Part shown: positions 983 through 9,122 of the stretch, piece by piece | Layout of the letters: each line of letters opens with the position of its first letter | Position numbering within the stretch: position 1 is the first letter of the stretch | Virus record (IMG/VR): IMGVR_UViG_3300006793_000347 | Location: 1 to 21,524 of that record | DNA: 21,524 nucleotides | Source: a virus | Direction: 5' to 3' (one strand) | Notes under the pieces: generated by a model | Databases searched by the model: none | Told to the model about the DNA's origin: nothing | What the model saw: only the letters and a program-made list of their open reading frames with translations | Program-made: the position numbers and the translations under genes

Positions 983-1363
983 TCAGCGTGTTGACCCAGC
1001 ACGAGCCATCGCTCGTAGCACTCTGTTGCCATCCGACTTGAACATTTTCTTGATGTTCTTGGATTCGGCAACAACCGCTGGTTCTAAGAAGGGTTGAGGG
1101 CGTTGTTTGAATGTTCCCAGTTCGACGGCTTGGGCGTAGTTCACTCCAGTTCCAGCACCGCCGAATTGCACGATTCGTTGATGTTGATTGACACGCTTGA
1201 CTCGACCAGATGCACGAAGCGCACCAGTATCGACCACGACTAATTTTTTCGCTTTCGTCAGGATTGCCTGTGCGACCTTATCGAGAGTCTTTTCACCGAC
1301 GGTCTTATTGAACTCGACAGTTCCAACACTCACGGCCATTTGAGCCTTCACGAATGGATTCAT
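983..1363 (-). CDS. HK97 gp10-like head-tail joining / minor tail protein
   Basis: A 126-aa protein with the signature of the HK97 gp10 / tail-completion family: VDTGALRASG in the middle, then VNYAQAVELGT, then RPQPFLEPA. Family members act at the head-tail junction or in tail completion of siphovirus- and myovirus-type particles. Length is close to usual for the family. The start ATG overlaps the portal stop codon (ATGA overlap), and GAGG lies 7 nt upstream inside the portal gene, so translation is probably coupled. This gene supports a tailed particle. Confidence 0.85.
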   Translation of the reverse strand: MNPFVKAQMAVSVGTVEFNKTVGEKTLDKVAQAILTKAKKLVVVDTGALRASGRVKRVNQHQRIVQFGGAGTGVNYAQAVELGTFKQRPQPFLEPAVVAESKNIKKMFKSDGNRVLRAMARAGSTR

Positions 1364-4089
1364 TCTTCAGCCTCCACCGCACGAGATAATTTTCCAGCCC
1401 ATGACAGACCTGCACGACCTCCCCAGAGCATCGCCGCTGTCCACGCTGGGCTATCCTTCGGCTCGTCGAGGAATCGAGCGTTGCGACCCCACCATCGAAT
1501 CATTTTCTTCGCTTTGGCAACCGTGATTGCAGTTCCTCGTGCGATGGCTCTCGCTTCACGCAGAGTGGCCGCTTCGAGTCCAGAGCCACCATACCCATCC
1601 TCGAACAATTTGATGCCCGTTTGACACGCTTTACGCACTCCAGCGGGTGGAGTCAAATCCTTCTTTGTCAATGCTCGCTTTTGGTCGAGAACTGGAACGA
1701 GAACATCACTGGTTGGAACGACCTCATCTGCGGGTGGCTCATCGTCGACGGCCACGAATGTGCATCTGCAATTTGGATGCGCTGGAACAACGCCCTTCGA
1801 TTCCTCGATGCGATACTTCGCACCTTCATACGGGGCGCATAGGTCACGGTCTGTTCTATCGTCAACCGTCACCAACCTCTCGACATATCTGAATCCTGCT
1901 CGTCGCATCCCAGCGATGTGGGAGTTCTCGACGACTCTTCGGGTTTCAGTTCGTGCGATTCTTTCATAATAATATGCTGGATATTTTGAGCCATTCGGGT
2001 CAATCAAATCCTTCATTTGACCCTTCGCCCATTTCCATGATTCGCCTCGACCAACCATGTTCTCAAAGACTCCGATGATGTTCTCTCGATGTGAACCGAG
2101 TGTGTTCCTCAACGCTGGGAGAACCCATCGCCTTCGCCAGAATGCAATTGCCGCAACATCGTCGGCCATCAAAGCCGAAGCGATTCCAGTTGGTGCGAGT
2201 GTCATTCCAAGAGATGCGCCATAAACATCGGTCAGGAGAATCTCGGCCTCGACAATCTGCCTTTCCACTGTTGCTGCGATATTGGTGTCGATACGACCAA
2301 CAGCAACCCTGATGTCTGCGATTCCAATTTTGTCCTTTCGTCGAAACATCTTGACGGGAATGTCAAGGTCGACATCTGGAATCTCAACCGCCTCGTCACC
2401 AGCGGAGAACATTTTGTCCAGTTCGTCAATAACATCGTCGGCGAATTGTTGTTGTTGATTATTCAATTCCGATGTCAGCGCCAGTTGCGACTTTGAGATG
2501 AGAGCATCGTATTCGTCGGCAGCCTTGATTCTTCGAGATTTCATATCGAGCCGAATATCGTCAGAAAGTTCAGGCTGCGATATTTCATCGACCCAATCTG
2601 GAATCGAACCTGCACCTTTTCCTTCGTCGGCTGGAGATTCATCAGCGGGGAATAATTCCGAGAGTGTTGGTGGTGTCGATGGAGATTCGGATTCTCCACC
2701 CAGATTATCAGCACCAGCGTTGATGGATAACTTCGGAGATAGATAGAACGGGTCGTCGGCTTCAGGCTCGCTCAAACGCTCAAGACCCAGCATGGCTCTG
2801 GCCTCGTTGATACTGACGACGCTCTCTTGACGGAGGTTGCTGATTGCATCCGACTCCGATTTTCGTGTGTCGGCCATCTCCTTCTCACGGCTTGGGCGAA
2901 TCGTAGTGAACGAGAACTCCCAATCTGTGATTCCCAGAAGTGGGAGAAGTCGGTTGTTGATAACGGCCTCGATACGGCGGTGGAATGATTCAATGACATC
3001 ATACCACGCATCCAATTGTTGTTCTGGATTGGACATTTTTCCAGTTTGAACCCAGCCCAATTTCATTGGTGGGATTCCAAACACGGCGCATATCTCTTCA
3101 CGATAATAATAGAGCAAATCCAATTGCGCCCCTTCACGAGTCGAGTCCAAAACACGGTGCATATTGAAGCCAGTTCCTCCGTTGACAGCGACCAATCCGA
3201 ATGGAGATTTTCCACCAGTCAATTGTTGTTCAAGCAGGGAGAGCATCGCTTTCATCTCGGCGTTGGATATATCACCGACATTGAGGATGGTCTTAGGGAG
3301 AGTTCCAGTATACAGTTCGTTCAGATAGTTCGAGAGATTCAAATGTCCAGCAATCACATTCAGCAGCGAGATGAGGGGAGATGTTCCGTATGCTCGGCCA
3401 TGTTTGAACTTGGAGATGTGGATAACTTTGTCAGATGAGAACTCACGGGTTTCGCCATTGAGTTCTTGACTATATGCCATCTTGGGTGGTGCAGGTCTGC
3501 GATTCCCTGCGGTCAATTTCATTTGCTCTGCTGGGATAGGCCACACGCTGGTGAGTTCGCCGCCGAATGTCCACTTGACCCCTTTTCCATCGAGGTTGAC
3601 ATCTGCGGACCCGTCGAGTTCCAGATAAGCGTCACCGAATAGAGCCAAGTCATAGATGAGGGTTTCAAGCCACTCATTCCCGTTGTCGTCAGGATTCGGA
3701 TTCTTGAACCATTGTCGAACTTTTTCCAATTGACCCGTGTCGCCAGTTTCCTTTCCATCTGGCAATTTGAAATGATACCCATTCCCCAGAGTGTCGTCGA
3801 CAGTTCGTCGGAGAATTGCGTTCACGACTTCGGATTTCAAACTGATGTCACGAAGCAATTGATACGACACTTTTGTTTCAGTTCCAGATGATTGTTTCCC
3901 TCGACCTTTGGCGGTGGCTTGTCCGATTTTGCTCATGGATGCGAGGCTCTTATAATCCCAATCCATGTTCTCCCATTCGGATTTATGAGCGTCATTCACC
4001 ATGTTCGATAACTTCGCCAAATCCGCTGGGTCAGCGTCACGGTTGCGACCAAGCAGTTTGTCAGCGAGGGTGCGCTTACGCTCGGCCAT
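1360..4089 (-). CDS. portal protein fused to Mu gpF / SPP1 gp7-like head morphogenesis domain
   Basis: A 909-aa protein. Residues about 75-450 look like a phage portal: a VKWTFGGELTSVWPIP core, YGTSPL, a long helical segment and AVFGIPPMKLGW at 336-346. The portal forms the ring through which DNA is pumped by the terminase (7587-9122). Residues about 460-500 are an acidic Pro/Ser-rich linker. Residues about 640-785 match the gpF/gp7 minor head family: RIARTETRRVVENS, then DRTDRDLC and HPNCRC, with Cys751, Cys774 and Cys776. Residues about 820-905 form a third part containing MLWGGRAGLSWAG, a motif I associate with C-termini of phage head-assembly proteins. Usual portals are about 400-550 aa, so this is a fusion. 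A TTAAACC box lies 30 nt before the ATG. The gp10-like gene follows with an ATGA overlap. Confidence 0.88.
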   Translation of the reverse strand: MAERKRTLADKLLGRNRDADPADLAKLSNMVNDAHKSEWENMDWDYKSLASMSKIGQATAKGRGKQSSGTETKVSYQLLRDISLKSEVVNAILRRTVDDTLGNGYHFKLPDGKETGDTGQLEKVRQWFKNPNPDDNGNEWLETLIYDLALFGDAYLELDGSADVNLDGKGVKWTFGGELTSVWPIPAEQMKLTAGNRRPAPPKMAYSQELNGETREFSSDKVIHISKFKHGRAYGTSPLISLLNVIAGHLNLSNYLNELYTGTLPKTILNVGDISNAEMKAMLSLLEQQLTGGKSPFGLVAVNGGTGFNMHRVLDSTREGAQLDLLYYYREEICAVFGIPPMKLGWVQTGKMSNPEQQLDAWYDVIESFHRRIEAVINNRLLPLLGITDWEFSFTTIRPSREKEMADTRKSESDAISNLRQESVVSINEARAMLGLERLSEPEADDPFYLSPKLSINAGADNLGGESESPSTPPTLSELFPADESPADEGKGAGSIPDWVDEISQPELSDDIRLDMKSRRIKAADEYDALISKSQLALTSELNNQQQQFADDVIDELDKMFSAGDEAVEIPDVDLDIPVKMFRRKDKIGIADIRVAVGRIDTNIAATVERQIVEAEILLTDVYGASLGMTLAPTGIASALMADDVAAIAFWRRRWVLPALRNTLGSHRENIIGVFENMVGRGESWKWAKGQMKDLIDPNGSKYPAYYYERIARTETRRVVENSHIAGMRRAGFRYVERLVTVDDRTDRDLCAPYEGAKYRIEESKGVVPAHPNCRCTFVAVDDEPPADEVVPTSDVLVPVLDQKRALTKKDLTPPAGVRKACQTGIKLFEDGYGGSGLEAATLREARAIARGTAITVAKAKKMIRWWGRNARFLDEPKDSPAWTAAMLWGGRAGLSWAGKLSRAVEAEE

Positions 4090-4110: not shown

Positions 4111-4119
4111 GGTTTAATT
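4111..4119 (-). promoter_or_regulatory. AATTAAACC box, 30 nt before the portal start
   Basis: Read on the minus strand, AATTAAACC begins 30 nt before the ATG at 4089, with no SD in between. The same TTAAACC core precedes the membrane-protein operon at 5886-5894. Confidence 0.55.
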
Positions 4120-4687: not shown

Positions 4688-4834
4688 TCATCCCCAATCT
4701 GGCCTATCGTCAGATTCGACGATACGCATATTCCCGTAGCGTCGAGGGCATTGAACGGCGTTGCACTTAGGTCTGGGAGAGCGTGTCCATTTGGTGCGCC
4801 CACAGGCCTCGCATAGCGCATGTCGGAGAGGCAT
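4688..4834 (-). CDS. 48-aa zinc-ribbon-like protein
   Basis: The protein starts MPLRHALCEACGRTKWTR and has a CxxC pair at residues 8-11 plus Cys24 and Cys29, a pattern expected for a small zinc ribbon. It is basic in the middle, so nucleic-acid binding is possible. The frame is open upstream to 4921, but GGGGGAGG (4843-4850) lies 8 nt before the ATG at 4834 and is among the strongest SD sequences in the window, so I use this start. It follows the membrane-protein operon on the same strand, about 130 bp further on, and ends 2 bp from the stop of the convergent gene at 4685. Confidence 0.55.
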   Translation of the reverse strand: MPLRHALCEACGRTKWTRSPRPKCNAVQCPRRYGNMRIVESDDRPDWG

Positions 4835-4967
4835 TAGTATGGCCTCCCCCATTGTTGGGCTTGATACACGACACACTTGATGCACATTCTGGATAGTCTG
4901 ATTGATGGTTTCCCTAAACAAAAGTGATAGCCATTCGGACAGGCTGGCAATCGTTTAGGATGGTCGC

Positions 4968-5252
4968 TCATATCATCTCAACCGCCATAGGTGCGCCAAC
5001 AGCAGCACCAATGGCAGTGATGATTCCCAAGAATATACGGCCTGAATACCGTCGAAGAACTGCGATGGCCTCATCCTTGAGTCCTTTCAATTCTCCAATG
5101 TCTTTCTTCATCATATCAACATCGTGCTTGAGGTTTGTCAAGTCCTCTTGAATATGAGCCAAGTGATTATCTCGCAGGTTGCTCAAGTCACGGTGGATTG
5201 CTTGAGTCCATTGAAATGTCGGGTCGTTTTTCCAATCTGGTTGGGTTGCCAT
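4968..5252 (-). CDS. coiled-coil protein with C-terminal membrane segment (holin/XhlA-like topology)
   Basis: A 94-aa protein. Residues about 20-65 form a heptad-rich helix (LSNLRDNHLAHIQEDL, then VDMMKKDIGELKGLKDE). Residues about 74-92 (IFLGIITAIGAAVGAPMAV) form one membrane span near the C-terminus. This layout is like XhlA-type phage membrane proteins, but I see no specific signature. It is third in a tight operon of small membrane proteins. A GTG start overlapping the previous stop is possible; I prefer the ATG at 5252. It may act in lysis, in envelope remodelling, or as a virion membrane component. Function is inferred from topology and context only. Confidence 0.6.
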   Translation of the reverse strand: MATQPDWKNDPTFQWTQAIHRDLSNLRDNHLAHIQEDLTNLKHDVDMMKKDIGELKGLKDEAIAVLRRYSGRIFLGIITAIGAAVGAPMAVEMI

Positions 5253-5257
5253 GATAA

Positions 5258-5665
5258 TCACTCTTCGCTGGTTTCGCCACTTATGAGTCCGAGTGAAACC
5301 TTCTGGGCTTCGGCCTCCAGTTCACGAATGTGAGCCGCTTGGCGGTCATTCATCTCTCGCAGATGGAGTGCTTCGGTTTCAGATTCTCTTTGTCGGGCTG
5401 TCCACATTTCAGGCATCGAAGTGATTTCCTGATTCTGTTCGGATTTCCAAAGTTCGAGTATCGAAGTCAATATCAAAAGTGCGGGTCCTCCGATGATTGC
5501 GATGAGAGTCGTATATCCGTCGATGTTGTTCATCACTTTGTCATCTTGGAGTCCAGACCAGATAACCAAACATGCGAAAGCCATCCAACAGAGCACGACT
5601 GGAACTCCAACCAGCAACATCATTCTGTCATTGACAGAACTCCCACTACGGTTTGGTTTAGCCAT
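5258..5665 (-). CDS. small membrane protein with two spans and a coiled-coil tail
   Basis: A 135-aa protein from the ATG at 5665. Two hydrophobic spans are visible, about residues 16-38 (LLVGVPVVLCWMAFACLVIW) and 51-70 (TLIAIIGGPALLILTSILEL). A Glu/Arg-rich helix follows (MWTARQRESETEALHLREMN and beyond). The short soluble N-terminus is basic (MAKPNRSG). An ATG at 5674 overlaps the stop of the preceding gene; GAGG upstream could serve either start. It is the middle gene of the three-gene membrane operon. No family is recognised; holin-like or envelope roles are guesses. Confidence 0.6.
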   Translation of the reverse strand: MAKPNRSGSSVNDRMMLLVGVPVVLCWMAFACLVIWSGLQDDKVMNNIDGYTTLIAIIGGPALLILTSILELWKSEQNQEITSMPEMWTARQRESETEALHLREMNDRQAAHIRELEAEAQKVSLGLISGETSEE

Positions 5666-5670
5666 GTGAA

Positions 5671-5865
5671 TCATTCCTCTTCGAGAATCTCTTCAACCTG
5701 CTCTTTGACTTCTTCGGCCTTCTCTCCGAGTGCTTTCACTTCGTCGATAACTTCGTCGAGAGTGATTTTTCCATCAGCCATCAAGCGAGTATATCGCTCT
5801 TTCAACCAGAGAATTGTCGGGATAGCGACAGCGGCAATAATCAGCATGATGGTTTCAAGTTCCAT
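5671..5865 (-). CDS. 64-aa single-span membrane protein
   Basis: Starts MELETIMLIIAAVAIPTILW, a single N-terminal membrane span, followed by a charged amphipathic helix ending VKEQVEEILEEE. This is the usual size and layout of many small phage holin-like or accessory membrane proteins, but no motif fixes the role. It is the first gene of the operon 5865-4968. A TCTTAAACC box 29 nt upstream serves as a leaderless promoter. The stop is overlapped by a possible ATG of the next gene. Confidence 0.6.
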   Translation of the reverse strand: MELETIMLIIAAVAIPTILWLKERYTRLMADGKITLDEVIDEVKALGEKAEEVKEQVEEILEEE

Positions 5866-5885: not shown

Positions 5886-5894
5886 GGTTTAAGA
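5886..5894 (-). promoter_or_regulatory. TCTTAAACC box, 29 nt before the membrane-protein operon
   Basis: Read on the minus strand, the box begins 29 nt before the ATG at 5865. It shares the TTAAACC core with the portal promoter, suggesting both are switched on together. Confidence 0.55.
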
Positions 5895-5903
5895 CCGTTT
5901 TCT

Positions 5904-7160
5904 TCAGGGTGTGGATTCATCGGAATGAATCACATCGTCAGTTCTTCGCCAGCCTGCATCTGATTCCCACCAAATATCGAGATGGATAGAATAGGTTTCG
6001 TTTGCTGCTGCACCAGACCAAGTGATACTTCGCCAATCCAGTTCAGTTCCAGTTATGTTGAATCCAAATGTCTGGGCGAATGCGGTTTGGTTCGTCGAGT
6101 TCTTGATGATAATATCGACTTCGATATATTCGGTTTCCTCCGAGCACACTAAATCTGCATCCAATCTGACTTTCATTTCAGTCGTGTTATTCTCAACATT
6201 CCAAACGATTTCACTCGCATAGAAAAATGGATTTTCTTCGCAGGCTGGCTCTTGTTCTTCAATGTCAATCGCCCAGAAGTTCACATTCTCCTTCGGCTCT
6301 CCTTGAACTCCAGCCTTGACTTTTGGAATCCAGTTCCCAACGGGAATCTCATCAAAGACATGGCTCACATCGGATTCGATTCCTCCCATCTCATTCGTTT
6401 GGTGGGTGTAGTTCGGCGCATGTCCATTCTGGAACAGTTCGATGGATAAGTCGATGTCGAAGTCGTCGCAATCATCTGGAACGACACGGAATGATACCAT
6501 TATGGCATCCTGCTCTGCGTCATTGGCCTCGTGGCCTCGATAGTGGTTATGGATGCCAACGGTGCAATCCTCGACGCTTGGGGCATACTCACACGACCCA
6601 TCATCCTCTTCGGCCTCTGGGTCGTAGTTATCAGCATTAGAATCGGTGCATCCTTTGATGTCCTCGTGTTCAGGCTCACATGAACCATCCTCGACGGTTG
6701 CTGACTCATCATAATTTGAAGCCGCTGGATTCATGCACCCATAGATAGGCCATACGCACGAGCCATCGTCGTCGGTGGCGTATGGGTCATAATTGTCAGC
6801 ATCCACCGCCATACAGCCCCAGATTGGCTCGTATGGAGGTTCGTAGTAGTATTCGTCGTCGTCGTCACCGTTCATACCCGTGAAGTCGGTGATTCCAAGC
6901 ATTTCAGCACCCCCTCCGCCCAAGAGAATGGCTATGACGGGCATCAAGGTTATCAGGAGGGTTTTGGCCTTCTCCGCTTGTTCATTGGCTTTGTCGAGGA
7001 TTCCTTTTTCAATAACGGCATCTGCACCAGATGAGAAGTTCAGTTCACCATCATCCAGCAGGTCTGCCAAAACATCTGATTTGTCACGACCAGTAGCCTC
7101 CGCCAGCAGTTCCGCCTTCTCGGTCAGGGCGACTAAATCCACATCATCCGCTACGCTCAT
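5904..7160 (-). CDS. membrane-anchored surface protein with GC-NYD-DDGSC repeats (possible adhesin or host-surface mimic)
   Basis: A 418-aa protein. Residues 1-65 are charged and helical. Residues about 67-83 form one membrane span (TLLITLMPVIAILLGGGG). An acidic/Tyr-rich spacer (DDDDEYYYEPPYEP) follows. Three copies of a roughly 21-residue repeat (GCM/T-x-A-x-NYD-x-DDGSC) lie at about 115-135, 141-161 and 170-190. A beta-rich C-terminal region of about 220 residues has several N-x-S/T sequons (NYT, NNT, NST, NQT, NIT, NET). Asp clusters plus paired Cys suggest calcium- and disulfide-stabilised extracellular repeats. I know this repeat from surface proteins of marine Group II archaea and marine Bacteroidetes. 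The frame extends to a GTG at 7190, but that GTG lies in the promoter box GTGAAAAACC, so I use the ATG at 7160. Possible roles are receptor binding, superinfection exclusion or a virion spike. Confidence 0.7.
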   Translation of the reverse strand: MSVADDVDLVALTEKAELLAEATGRDKSDVLADLLDDGELNFSSGADAVIEKGILDKANEQAEKAKTLLITLMPVIAILLGGGGAEMLGITDFTGMNGDDDDEYYYEPPYEPIWGCMAVDADNYDPYATDDDGSCVWPIYGCMNPAASNYDESATVEDGSCEPEHEDIKGCTDSNADNYDPEAEEDDGSCEYAPSVEDCTVGIHNHYRGHEANDAEQDAIMVSFRVVPDDCDDFDIDLSIELFQNGHAPNYTHQTNEMGGIESDVSHVFDEIPVGNWIPKVKAGVQGEPKENVNFWAIDIEEQEPACEENPFFYASEIVWNVENNTTEMKVRLDADLVCSEETEYIEVDIIIKNSTNQTAFAQTFGFNITGTELDWRSITWSGAAANETYSIHLDIWWESDAGWRRTDDVIHSDESTP

Positions 7161-7180
7161 GGTGAGCAATTCACCAGTGC

Positions 7181-7190
7181 GGTTTTTCAC
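7181..7190 (-). promoter_or_regulatory. GTGAAAAACC box, 30 nt before the surface-protein start
   Basis: Begins 30 nt before the ATG at 7160. It is a weak TATA match but ends in AAACC like the portal and membrane-operon boxes. Confidence 0.4.
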
Positions 7191-7208: not shown

Positions 7209-7523
7209 TCAAGCGAAGGTGTGCAATTCGATGACAGCGCCACCGTGAGTGATTTCAACACACGCAGGATAAACCATTGTTCCAGCGGCTCGGTTTGAGC
7301 GATGCCATTGGACATCTCCATCTGAATCAGTCCAGCGTTGAACATCGGTGATAACTTCGATAGTCAAGTGGTCTGCACCACATGGACAATCGTCAACGGG
7401 TCCACGACCCACCATTTTTCCAATGATGAATGCGTTGTCGCTGAATTGGCTGTGAAACGACTTAACTGTGTCGCCTGTGTGTATTGCTGTTCCGTGTCGG
7501 TCTGTGTAAAGGTATTCGCCCAT
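7209..7523 (-). CDS. 104-aa beta-rich protein, unknown function
   Basis: Starts MGEYLYTDRHGTAIHTGDTV. The opening (DRHGTAIHTGDTVKSF, then FIIGKMVG) looks like a small SH3/KOW-type beta barrel, a form common in short phage proteins. A DDCPCGADH cluster in the middle could bind metal. No known family is recognised. The start has a TTATAAGG box 29 nt upstream and no SD. It sits between the large terminase and the surface-protein gene. Confidence 0.65.
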   Translation of the reverse strand: MGEYLYTDRHGTAIHTGDTVKSFHSQFSDNAFIIGKMVGRGPVDDCPCGADHLTIEVITDVQRWTDSDGDVQWHRSNRAAGTMVYPACVEITHGGAVIELHTFA

Positions 7524-7586: not shown

Positions 7587-9122
7587 TCAAGCACCGAAGG
7601 TTCTCATCGTTGGAAGCCCGCCGCCCTCATCCATCATATCGACGGCGATAAGCGCATAGAGCAGGCTGTGGAATGCGTGGTCGTCACCATCTCGACCATA
7701 CTTCGTCAGGGATTGGGAACGGCGTTGCCTCCCAGACTTCATGTCATCCTCGACGGATGAATTGATGGCACACCATTCGTGAATGACCCATTCCAGTTCA
7801 CGGTCTTTGAACGGCAATACAATCTCTTTGTTCTTGATTATCTCCAGTGTCTTTTCGATGTATGTTGTTCGGTCAATGACCGCCATGTTGATGATGTTTC
7901 GATTGTTGTCACGCTTCTTGAACTCGTATGGAGTCATTGGTCGACTCGAATAATAGCACGAGCAAACACGCTCACCGAACTCTTCCTGCAGTTCCTTGAC
8001 CTGCCTCGCACCATACCCAATATCACACACGACCTTTCGAGAATTGTATCGAAGAATGAGTTCTTTGATGCGCCCGACTTCATCCAGTTCGCCCTCGCCT
8101 CTGGCTTCAATTCGCATCGCATTCAATATCCGTTTTCCATCTGCCGAGAGAATCACGACGGTTGTTGTCAACCCCCAATCAATTCCCATCACGGATTCTT
8201 CTGGAATCTGCACCGACTCGACTGGGAACATATCGGAGTCGATAACTCCCAGCGCAACATCGAATGTCAGCGGCTTTGCTGACCCAGCGAAGAACTCGCC
8301 GAGAACTTCATTTTGGAATCTGCGGGGAGTGTATGTTCCTCGCTTTTGTTCGATGTCAGCAGCACTGACATCTGGGTGCATGACTTGGGTGATGTGATAC
8401 CCGATGATGTTCTGAACCTGCGTGTCGTGGCCGTGTGAATGAATCCATTGTTCACCATCCCATTCAGCCTTAGTGCTGGTTTCCCATAGCCTCCAGAACT
8501 CCGAACCCTGTTCACGGGCTGTTCCAGATACGAGAACCAATTTGTAGTTCGATTGGGTGAGCATCTCGATTAGCATTGGGAGAACATCGGGGTCCGAATC
8601 CTGATATTCGTCGATGCAACACATATCGGCGGCGATACCGAGCAAACCGTGAGCATCGCCCCAGTTCGAGTAAGCATAGAAGTGGTTCAACGACTTTGCA
8701 CCGACATCGAATGTCTGGTGACTCACGCTGGACTTGATTCGTTGCTTTAGAAGGCATCCGTTGTTGACGCTGGACATCATCGCCCCATTGAACCGTTCCT
8801 CGACGAATCTGGACACCTGTGGTTGTCTGGGGGCGGTATAGACGGCATTGAAGTATGGAATGTTCAACAACCCATAGAGAAGGAGGTTGCATATCGTTTC
8901 AGTCTTTTCGACTTTACGAGAGCACTTGAGAACGATGACCTTCGTCGTGTCATTGTTTTGAGATGCACCGAAGTGGCGATACACTTCTTGGAGATATGGT
9001 CGCTCGTGAAGAAGGAACGCTTTCCCTTCGATGGTTCTGAAATACTGCGCCCAGCGGTCTGGATAGAGAGCAATCTCTCGTGCCTGTTGCTTGGTTAAAG
9101 CCTGTCCAGCACCCTCGCCCAT
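7587..9122 (-). CDS. terL: terminase large subunit (packaging ATPase-nuclease)
   Basis: A 511-aa protein, normal length for the family. It drives DNA into the prohead through the portal and cuts it. The ATPase half shows a Walker A-like stretch KCSRKVEKTE at about 66-75 (Arg69, Lys73, Thr74; glycines of the standard loop missing), Walker B MCCIDEYQD at about 167-175 with Asp171 and Glu172, and the coupling motif SGT at 199-201. The RNase H-like nuclease half shows MGIDWG (Asp315), VVCDIGYGARQ (Asp367) and DGDDHAFHSLLYAL (Asp480/481). The start has a TTGATGGAG box 31 nt upstream. The small subunit is not next to it; a candidate is at 16333-16932. Confidence 0.93.
   Translation of the reverse strand: MGEGAGQALTKQQAREIALYPDRWAQYFRTIEGKAFLLHERPYLQEVYRHFGASQNNDTTKVIVLKCSRKVEKTETICNLLLYGLLNIPYFNAVYTAPRQPQVSRFVEERFNGAMMSSVNNGCLLKQRIKSSVSHQTFDVGAKSLNHFYAYSNWGDAHGLLGIAADMCCIDEYQDSDPDVLPMLIEMLTQSNYKLVLVSGTAREQGSEFWRLWETSTKAEWDGEQWIHSHGHDTQVQNIIGYHITQVMHPDVSAADIEQKRGTYTPRRFQNEVLGEFFAGSAKPLTFDVALGVIDSDMFPVESVQIPEESVMGIDWGLTTTVVILSADGKRILNAMRIEARGEGELDEVGRIKELILRYNSRKVVCDIGYGARQVKELQEEFGERVCSCYYSSRPMTPYEFKKRDNNRNIINMAVIDRTTYIEKTLEIIKNKEIVLPFKDRELEWVIHEWCAINSSVEDDMKSGRQRRSQSLTKYGRDGDDHAFHSLLYALIAVDMMDEGGGLPTMRTFGA

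Follow-up and report, generated by a model that had tools for sequence, protein, structure and literature searches.

Small membrane-protein genes between the terminase and portal genes of a likely archaeal tailed virus: a candidate lysis module

Gene organization of the locus

The window, i.e., the whole stretch of 21,524 nucleotides of viral DNA analyzed here, carries on its minus strand a series of genes in the following order: the terminase large subunit (TerL), a 104-aa gene, a surface protein, A, B, C, two small Cys-rich ORFs, a portal-MuF fusion protein, and an HK97 gp10-like gene. The features in and around the focused region, all on the minus strand, are located as follows.

7587–9122, minus strand: TerL (PHROG 675, E 2e-59), the upstream boundary of the module
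5904–7190, minus strand: surface protein of 428 aa, with an acidic N-terminal region, one span, and then ADNYDPxATxDDGSC-type Cys/Asp repeats; found in some relatives only
5886–5892, minus strand: promoter-like box TTAAACC, 27 nt upstream of A; position kept in 10/10 loci
5671–5865, minus strand: gene A, 64 aa; N-terminal span and acidic helix
5258–5674, minus strand: gene B, 138 aa (likely start 5665, 135 aa); two-span hairpin and long, predicted cytoplasmic helix
4968–5261, minus strand: gene C, 97 aa (likely start 5252, 94 aa); long helix and C-terminal span
4834–4971, minus strand: ORF D, 45 aa, Cys-rich, overlapping the end of C; kept in the close clade
about 4688–4852, minus strand: ORF E, about 55 aa, zinc-ribbon-like; kept in the close clade
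4111–4117, minus strand: TTAAACC box upstream of the portal gene
1360–4089, minus strand: portal-MuF fusion protein (PF04860, E 2e-36; PF04233, E 1e-7), the downstream boundary of the module

Overlaps of a few bases join A, B, and C. The original prediction, which described a three-gene operon here, was correct in its gene map, coordinates, and membrane spans, as judged by the ORF map and span prediction. Its extent held only in part: the three overlapping ORFs stand, but the operon does not end at C, as ORFs D and E continue it in the clade of the window. A, B, and C are genes, not chance ORFs, because homologues occur in dozens of distinct contigs and the pN/pS values are 0.17–0.42. These values, obtained against relatives with synonymous sites near saturation, indicate purifying selection on all three; for A, the range is 0.17–0.27, and the homologues are matched at E 1e-16 to 1e-32.

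The window has two copies of TTAAACC, both on the coding strand: one precedes A and the other the portal gene, each at 27–28 nt, and the opposite strand has none. A TAAACC box was also found 26–28 nt before the first module gene in all of the 10 loci checked, whichever gene leads (B in L037). The claim that the operon is under a promoter like that of the portal gene agrees with this shared box. As for the translation starts, the first ATG/GTG of B and that of C each overlap the upstream stop codon within a conserved GAGTGATT element (in relatives, the GAGTGATT-N3-ATG element spans this stop codon), and the first start codon of B is absent in L003. The true starts of B and C are therefore probably the second ATGs, at 5665 and 5252, which lie 9 nt further downstream. 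Another promoter-like element, of the TTGATATT / TTGAGATTCC type, is seen before several other minus-strand genes (e.g., upstream of 15521–16057 and 7209–7523), which suggests a second gene class.

Predicted topology and family comparisons of A, B, and C

Single-span, two-span, and C-terminal-span proteins with charged helices had been proposed for the trio, and topology prediction reached the same assignment for A, B, and C, respectively. By the positive-inside rule, the charged helices of all three are predicted to face the cytoplasm. Significant matches to A, B, or C were not found in Pfam, PHROGs, PDB, or fold libraries, nor were homologues found in 50,697 phage records (tblastn for the B and A forms). 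Judged by sequence comparison, A, B, and C are conserved protein families that had previously been unnamed.

Protein A has one span (residues 3–21). The acidic helix behind it is predicted to be cytoplasmic and bears the motif Y-x4-ADGKITLDE; 50% of the residues in this tail are charged. The charge pattern among the homologues is N-out/C-in: the mean number of K/R is 0 before the span and 3.6 after it. Single members of A reach PHROG spanin families near 1e-3, a level where coiled coils match by chance. An Rz-like spanin identity was rejected: a spanin is N-in/C-out with a coiled coil outside, whereas A is N-out/C-in. About 30% of the A homologues, including further cases read by eye, carry at the predicted cytoplasmic end a SAP domain, i.e., a DNA-binding helix-extended-helix domain. 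In the Pfam scan, it was detected at E 6e-10 to 3e-12 in five single-span homologues (L044:5903–6238, L060:6425–6754, L089:6425–6745, L187:494–907, and L198:3856–4254) and was absent from L091, L042, and the A of the window itself. Two side observations concern the surroundings of A: in L042, a span resembling that of the surface protein is fused with A in one ORF, and a staphylococcal-nuclease-like ORF, recognized by eye, lies between B and A in two loci (L022:12510–12860 and L023:4639–4980).

Protein B is a two-span hairpin with the motif IGGPALLIxxSxLxLWK, followed by a long, predicted cytoplasmic helix. In the AF2 model (mean pLDDT 78.5), helices 11–40 and 48–124 were found, the two membrane helices leading into the 77-residue helix. 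The charge rule gives N-in/C-in for 53 of the 53 homologues. This predicted layout, two spans with both ends inside, is that of class II holins such as S21; B differs from them in its helical tail of 60–70 residues and in the lack of a family match by sequence or fold (Pfam, PHROGs, PDB, and fold libraries), the fold search giving no match at E ≤ 0.001.

Protein C consists of a long helix with the near-invariant motif DNHLxH...D and a C-terminal span; the AF2 model is one helix of 83 residues (11–93; mean pLDDT 88.8). Its charge pattern is N-in/C-out (K/R 3.2 before the span and 0 after it). The predicted layout, a cytoplasmic helical region and a C-terminal span beside a holin-like protein, resembles that of XhlA, which pairs with holins in the lysis cassettes of the PBSX type (PMC10630273). 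Membership of C in the XhlA family (PF10779) was rejected: the best score was 14.2 bits against the cut-off of 34.7, with a profile that also gives weak hits in 13 of 14 control genomes. C further differs from XhlA in the DNHLxH motif and in having no amidase or endolysin. Two C members each match the PHROG hemolysin families 937 (E 3e-4) and 1193, at an E level where chance coiled-coil matches also occur. A tape-measure reading was also rejected, the relatives encoding a separate tape measure of 765–865 aa.

Proteins with a coiled coil and a span can be ejected proteins. The trio is encoded among head genes, and A, B, and C might be minor components of the virion, inserted into the host membrane at infection to aid DNA entry. 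We regard this as very unlikely, as the trio has no virion family match above noise and the tape measure of the relatives carries spans of its own.

The nearest parallel to A and B was found in the F1 mycobacteriophages, in which LysF1a and LysF1b are both needed for efficient lysis (PMC13056207). In both cases, by prediction for A and B, a two-span N-in/C-in protein is encoded next to a protein with an N-terminal single span, N-out/C-in, and a highly charged cytoplasmic tail (PMC13056207). The present case differs in that A and B have no detectable homology in the phage collection, no endolysin genes are adjacent, a third protein (C) is present, and the virus is probably archaeal. The proposal of a candidate archaeal lysis or envelope module is supported in part: the predicted topologies match those of known lysis-cassette proteins (PMC13056207, PMC10630273), while the N-out/C-in charge pattern of A contradicts a spanin-like spanning of the envelope by this protein.

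Conservation and linkage among relatives

Using TerL as bait, which is unbiased towards the module, at least two of A, B, and C were found between TerL and the portal gene in 20 of the 20 fetched loci that reach both genes, some of these loci being near-identical. A set of 86 non-redundant loci, composed of the TerL-fetched loci and those fetched through B and C, contained A + B + C in 35, B + C in 22, A + C in 2, B only in 22, and none in 5, several of these being cut off before the region. The gene order is shuffled (A-B-C, B-A-C, C-B-A, and C-B), and the set is kept. Only C is universal in the group of the window, because L009/L010 lack B and no A was found for the C-B clade.

The B-only loci examined have B directly behind the portal gene, the exception being L093, where the context is different. 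In two records with such loci (G001 and G002), A is present as well (E 3e-16 and 3e-17), at some distance from B, and behind it come a C-like gene and then a second small tail-anchored gene; the C-like gene was assigned from an E of 0.03 in G001 and from gene position only. In G003 and L099, another small tail-anchored ORF follows B. With genes for a chaperonin-like protein, a clamp loader, and a family B polymerase, G001 and G002 look like magroviruses. Since the magrovirus-like genomes keep A, B, and the C-like gene and place B apart, it appears from these comparisons that conservation across the two virus groups concerns the set of genes rather than the exact operon. Retention of the trio as a set among related viruses was supported; the exceptions are the splitting of B from A and C in the magrovirus-like genomes, the loss of B, and the C-B clade. 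Separate occurrence in relatives, named with the original prediction as evidence against it, was found in part; the other such evidence, a match to known virion or tail families, was absent above noise.

The linkage to the portal gene provides the main rival to a function in lysis, namely that A, B, and C serve late in infection to tether the portal, the prohead, or the viral DNA to the inner side of the membrane. T4 gp40 is thought to hold the portal at the membrane (PMC13212656 and references there), and the procapsids of SPP1 start at a membrane-bound portal, the anchor being unknown (PMC13212656). The likeness to gp40 lies in small membrane proteins encoded with the portal, seen here as gene adjacency; gp40 is a single protein as compared with up to three here. 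The module abuts the portal gene even in the loci that have TerL on the other strand (L044, L060, L064, and L066), B accompanies the portal gene in both virus groups, and a SAP domain at the end of A that is predicted to be cytoplasmic (similar tails occur in other homologues) would suit contact with DNA. However, in both bacterial phages checked whose TerL is related, the portal gene comes right after TerL and no such membrane genes are present, unrelated genes commonly adjoin in late operons, the A of the window lacks the SAP domain, and B can be lost. This reading is rather doubtful in our estimation. Its fuller version is unlikely: in it, the trio would be a membrane platform to which both the portal and the viral DNA are anchored while the heads of archaeal tailed viruses are assembled or packaged, the SAP domain of A being the DNA tether in many of these viruses.

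The surface protein suggests another possibility, in which the proteins stay in the membrane of the infected cell and, with the exposed repeat protein, block a second virus (superinfection exclusion) or remodel the surface. A surface protein with external repeats is encoded just upstream in part of the relatives, and the single ORF of L042 joins its type of span to A. This protein is, however, variable, being often absent where the trio stays, the promoter box is common to the portal gene, and A, B, and C expose little outside the membrane; we consider such a role quite unlikely.

A candidate function in lysis

An 82-kb relative (G006) codes for an AAA ATPase, a VWA protein, a family B DNA polymerase, and a clamp loader of the RFC-like type. 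Several of its proteins, among them the polymerase and the clamp loader, match proteins of the haloarchaeal virus HVTV-1. Infection of archaea is therefore likely. To judge from the likeness to magroviruses (PMC12999244, PMC13108676), the host is probably Poseidoniales (Marine Group II); no host was confirmed via B or TerL relatives in the bacterial and archaeal genome contigs scanned. In six relatives of ~80 kb (G006, G007, G008, G010, G013, and G016), the conserved membrane proteins are essentially the trio itself, the tape measure, and, in part of them, the surface protein, besides a few poorly conserved small ORFs; this survey was hydropathy-based, on records not proven complete. Candidates for the breaker of the membrane other than the trio are therefore few.

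A virulent virus must exit its host, and this, together with the scarcity of other small membrane proteins and the layouts of LysF1b/LysF1a and XhlA, leads us to favour the reading in which A, B, and C form a late, endolysin-free lysis (egress) module of a tailed virus that probably infects archaea. We assign it a probability of about 0.48. This model draws on the gene structure, the conservation, the late-gene linkage, the shared promoter box, and the predicted topology. In it, B, the two-span N-in/C-in hairpin, would be a holin-like hole former or its regulator; A, with its single span and charged cytoplasmic tail, would be the partner of B, as LysF1b is to LysF1a; and C, the tail-anchored helix, would be an XhlA-like partner. 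The cytoplasmic helices of the three may associate into membrane patches, which would open late and breach the membrane. An endolysin would not be needed, because the hosts are taken to lack murein. The hetero-oligomer, the hole formation, the timing, the lack of a lysin, and the host are the parts of the model that we infer.

The module sits among late genes, between TerL and the portal gene, which speaks for lysis. Against lysis, none of the three has a significant match to a holin by sequence or fold, no endolysin or peptidase was seen beside the module, single members of the trio are lacking in some relatives, the SAP domain on ~30% of the A homologues is odd for a lysis protein, and B in the magrovirus-like genomes adjoins the portal gene, away from A and C. 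The computed evidence does not decisively separate the lysis module from an anchor of the portal, the prohead, or DNA.

The statement that the lysis genes of such archaeal viruses are little known agrees with the literature: according to a 2015 review, none of the isolated archaeal viruses has a holin gene that was found (PMC4456609), and among the 129 archaeal dsDNA viruses of a 2025 survey, lytic proteins were detectable in just 10.9% (PMC12596118). The exit route of tailed viruses from archaea without pseudomurein is unknown, and the trio, which belongs to viruses of probably abundant marine archaea, offers three defined, widely conserved candidate families that are testable by expression. 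Small holin-like membrane cassettes are already known; an endolysin-free archaeal version would be new. If the anchoring of the portal were true instead, the trio would supply candidates for the missing membrane link in procapsid assembly.

Finally, HVTV-1, an isolated haloarchaeal tailed virus, lacks B and C, and its best match to A is not significant (E 0.13). Its gene 124 (L224:28405–28737), for which no sequence relation was found, encodes a protein of 110 aa with an N-terminal span and a helical tail; it follows the capsid genes, a position resembling that of A in the magrovirus-like genomes.
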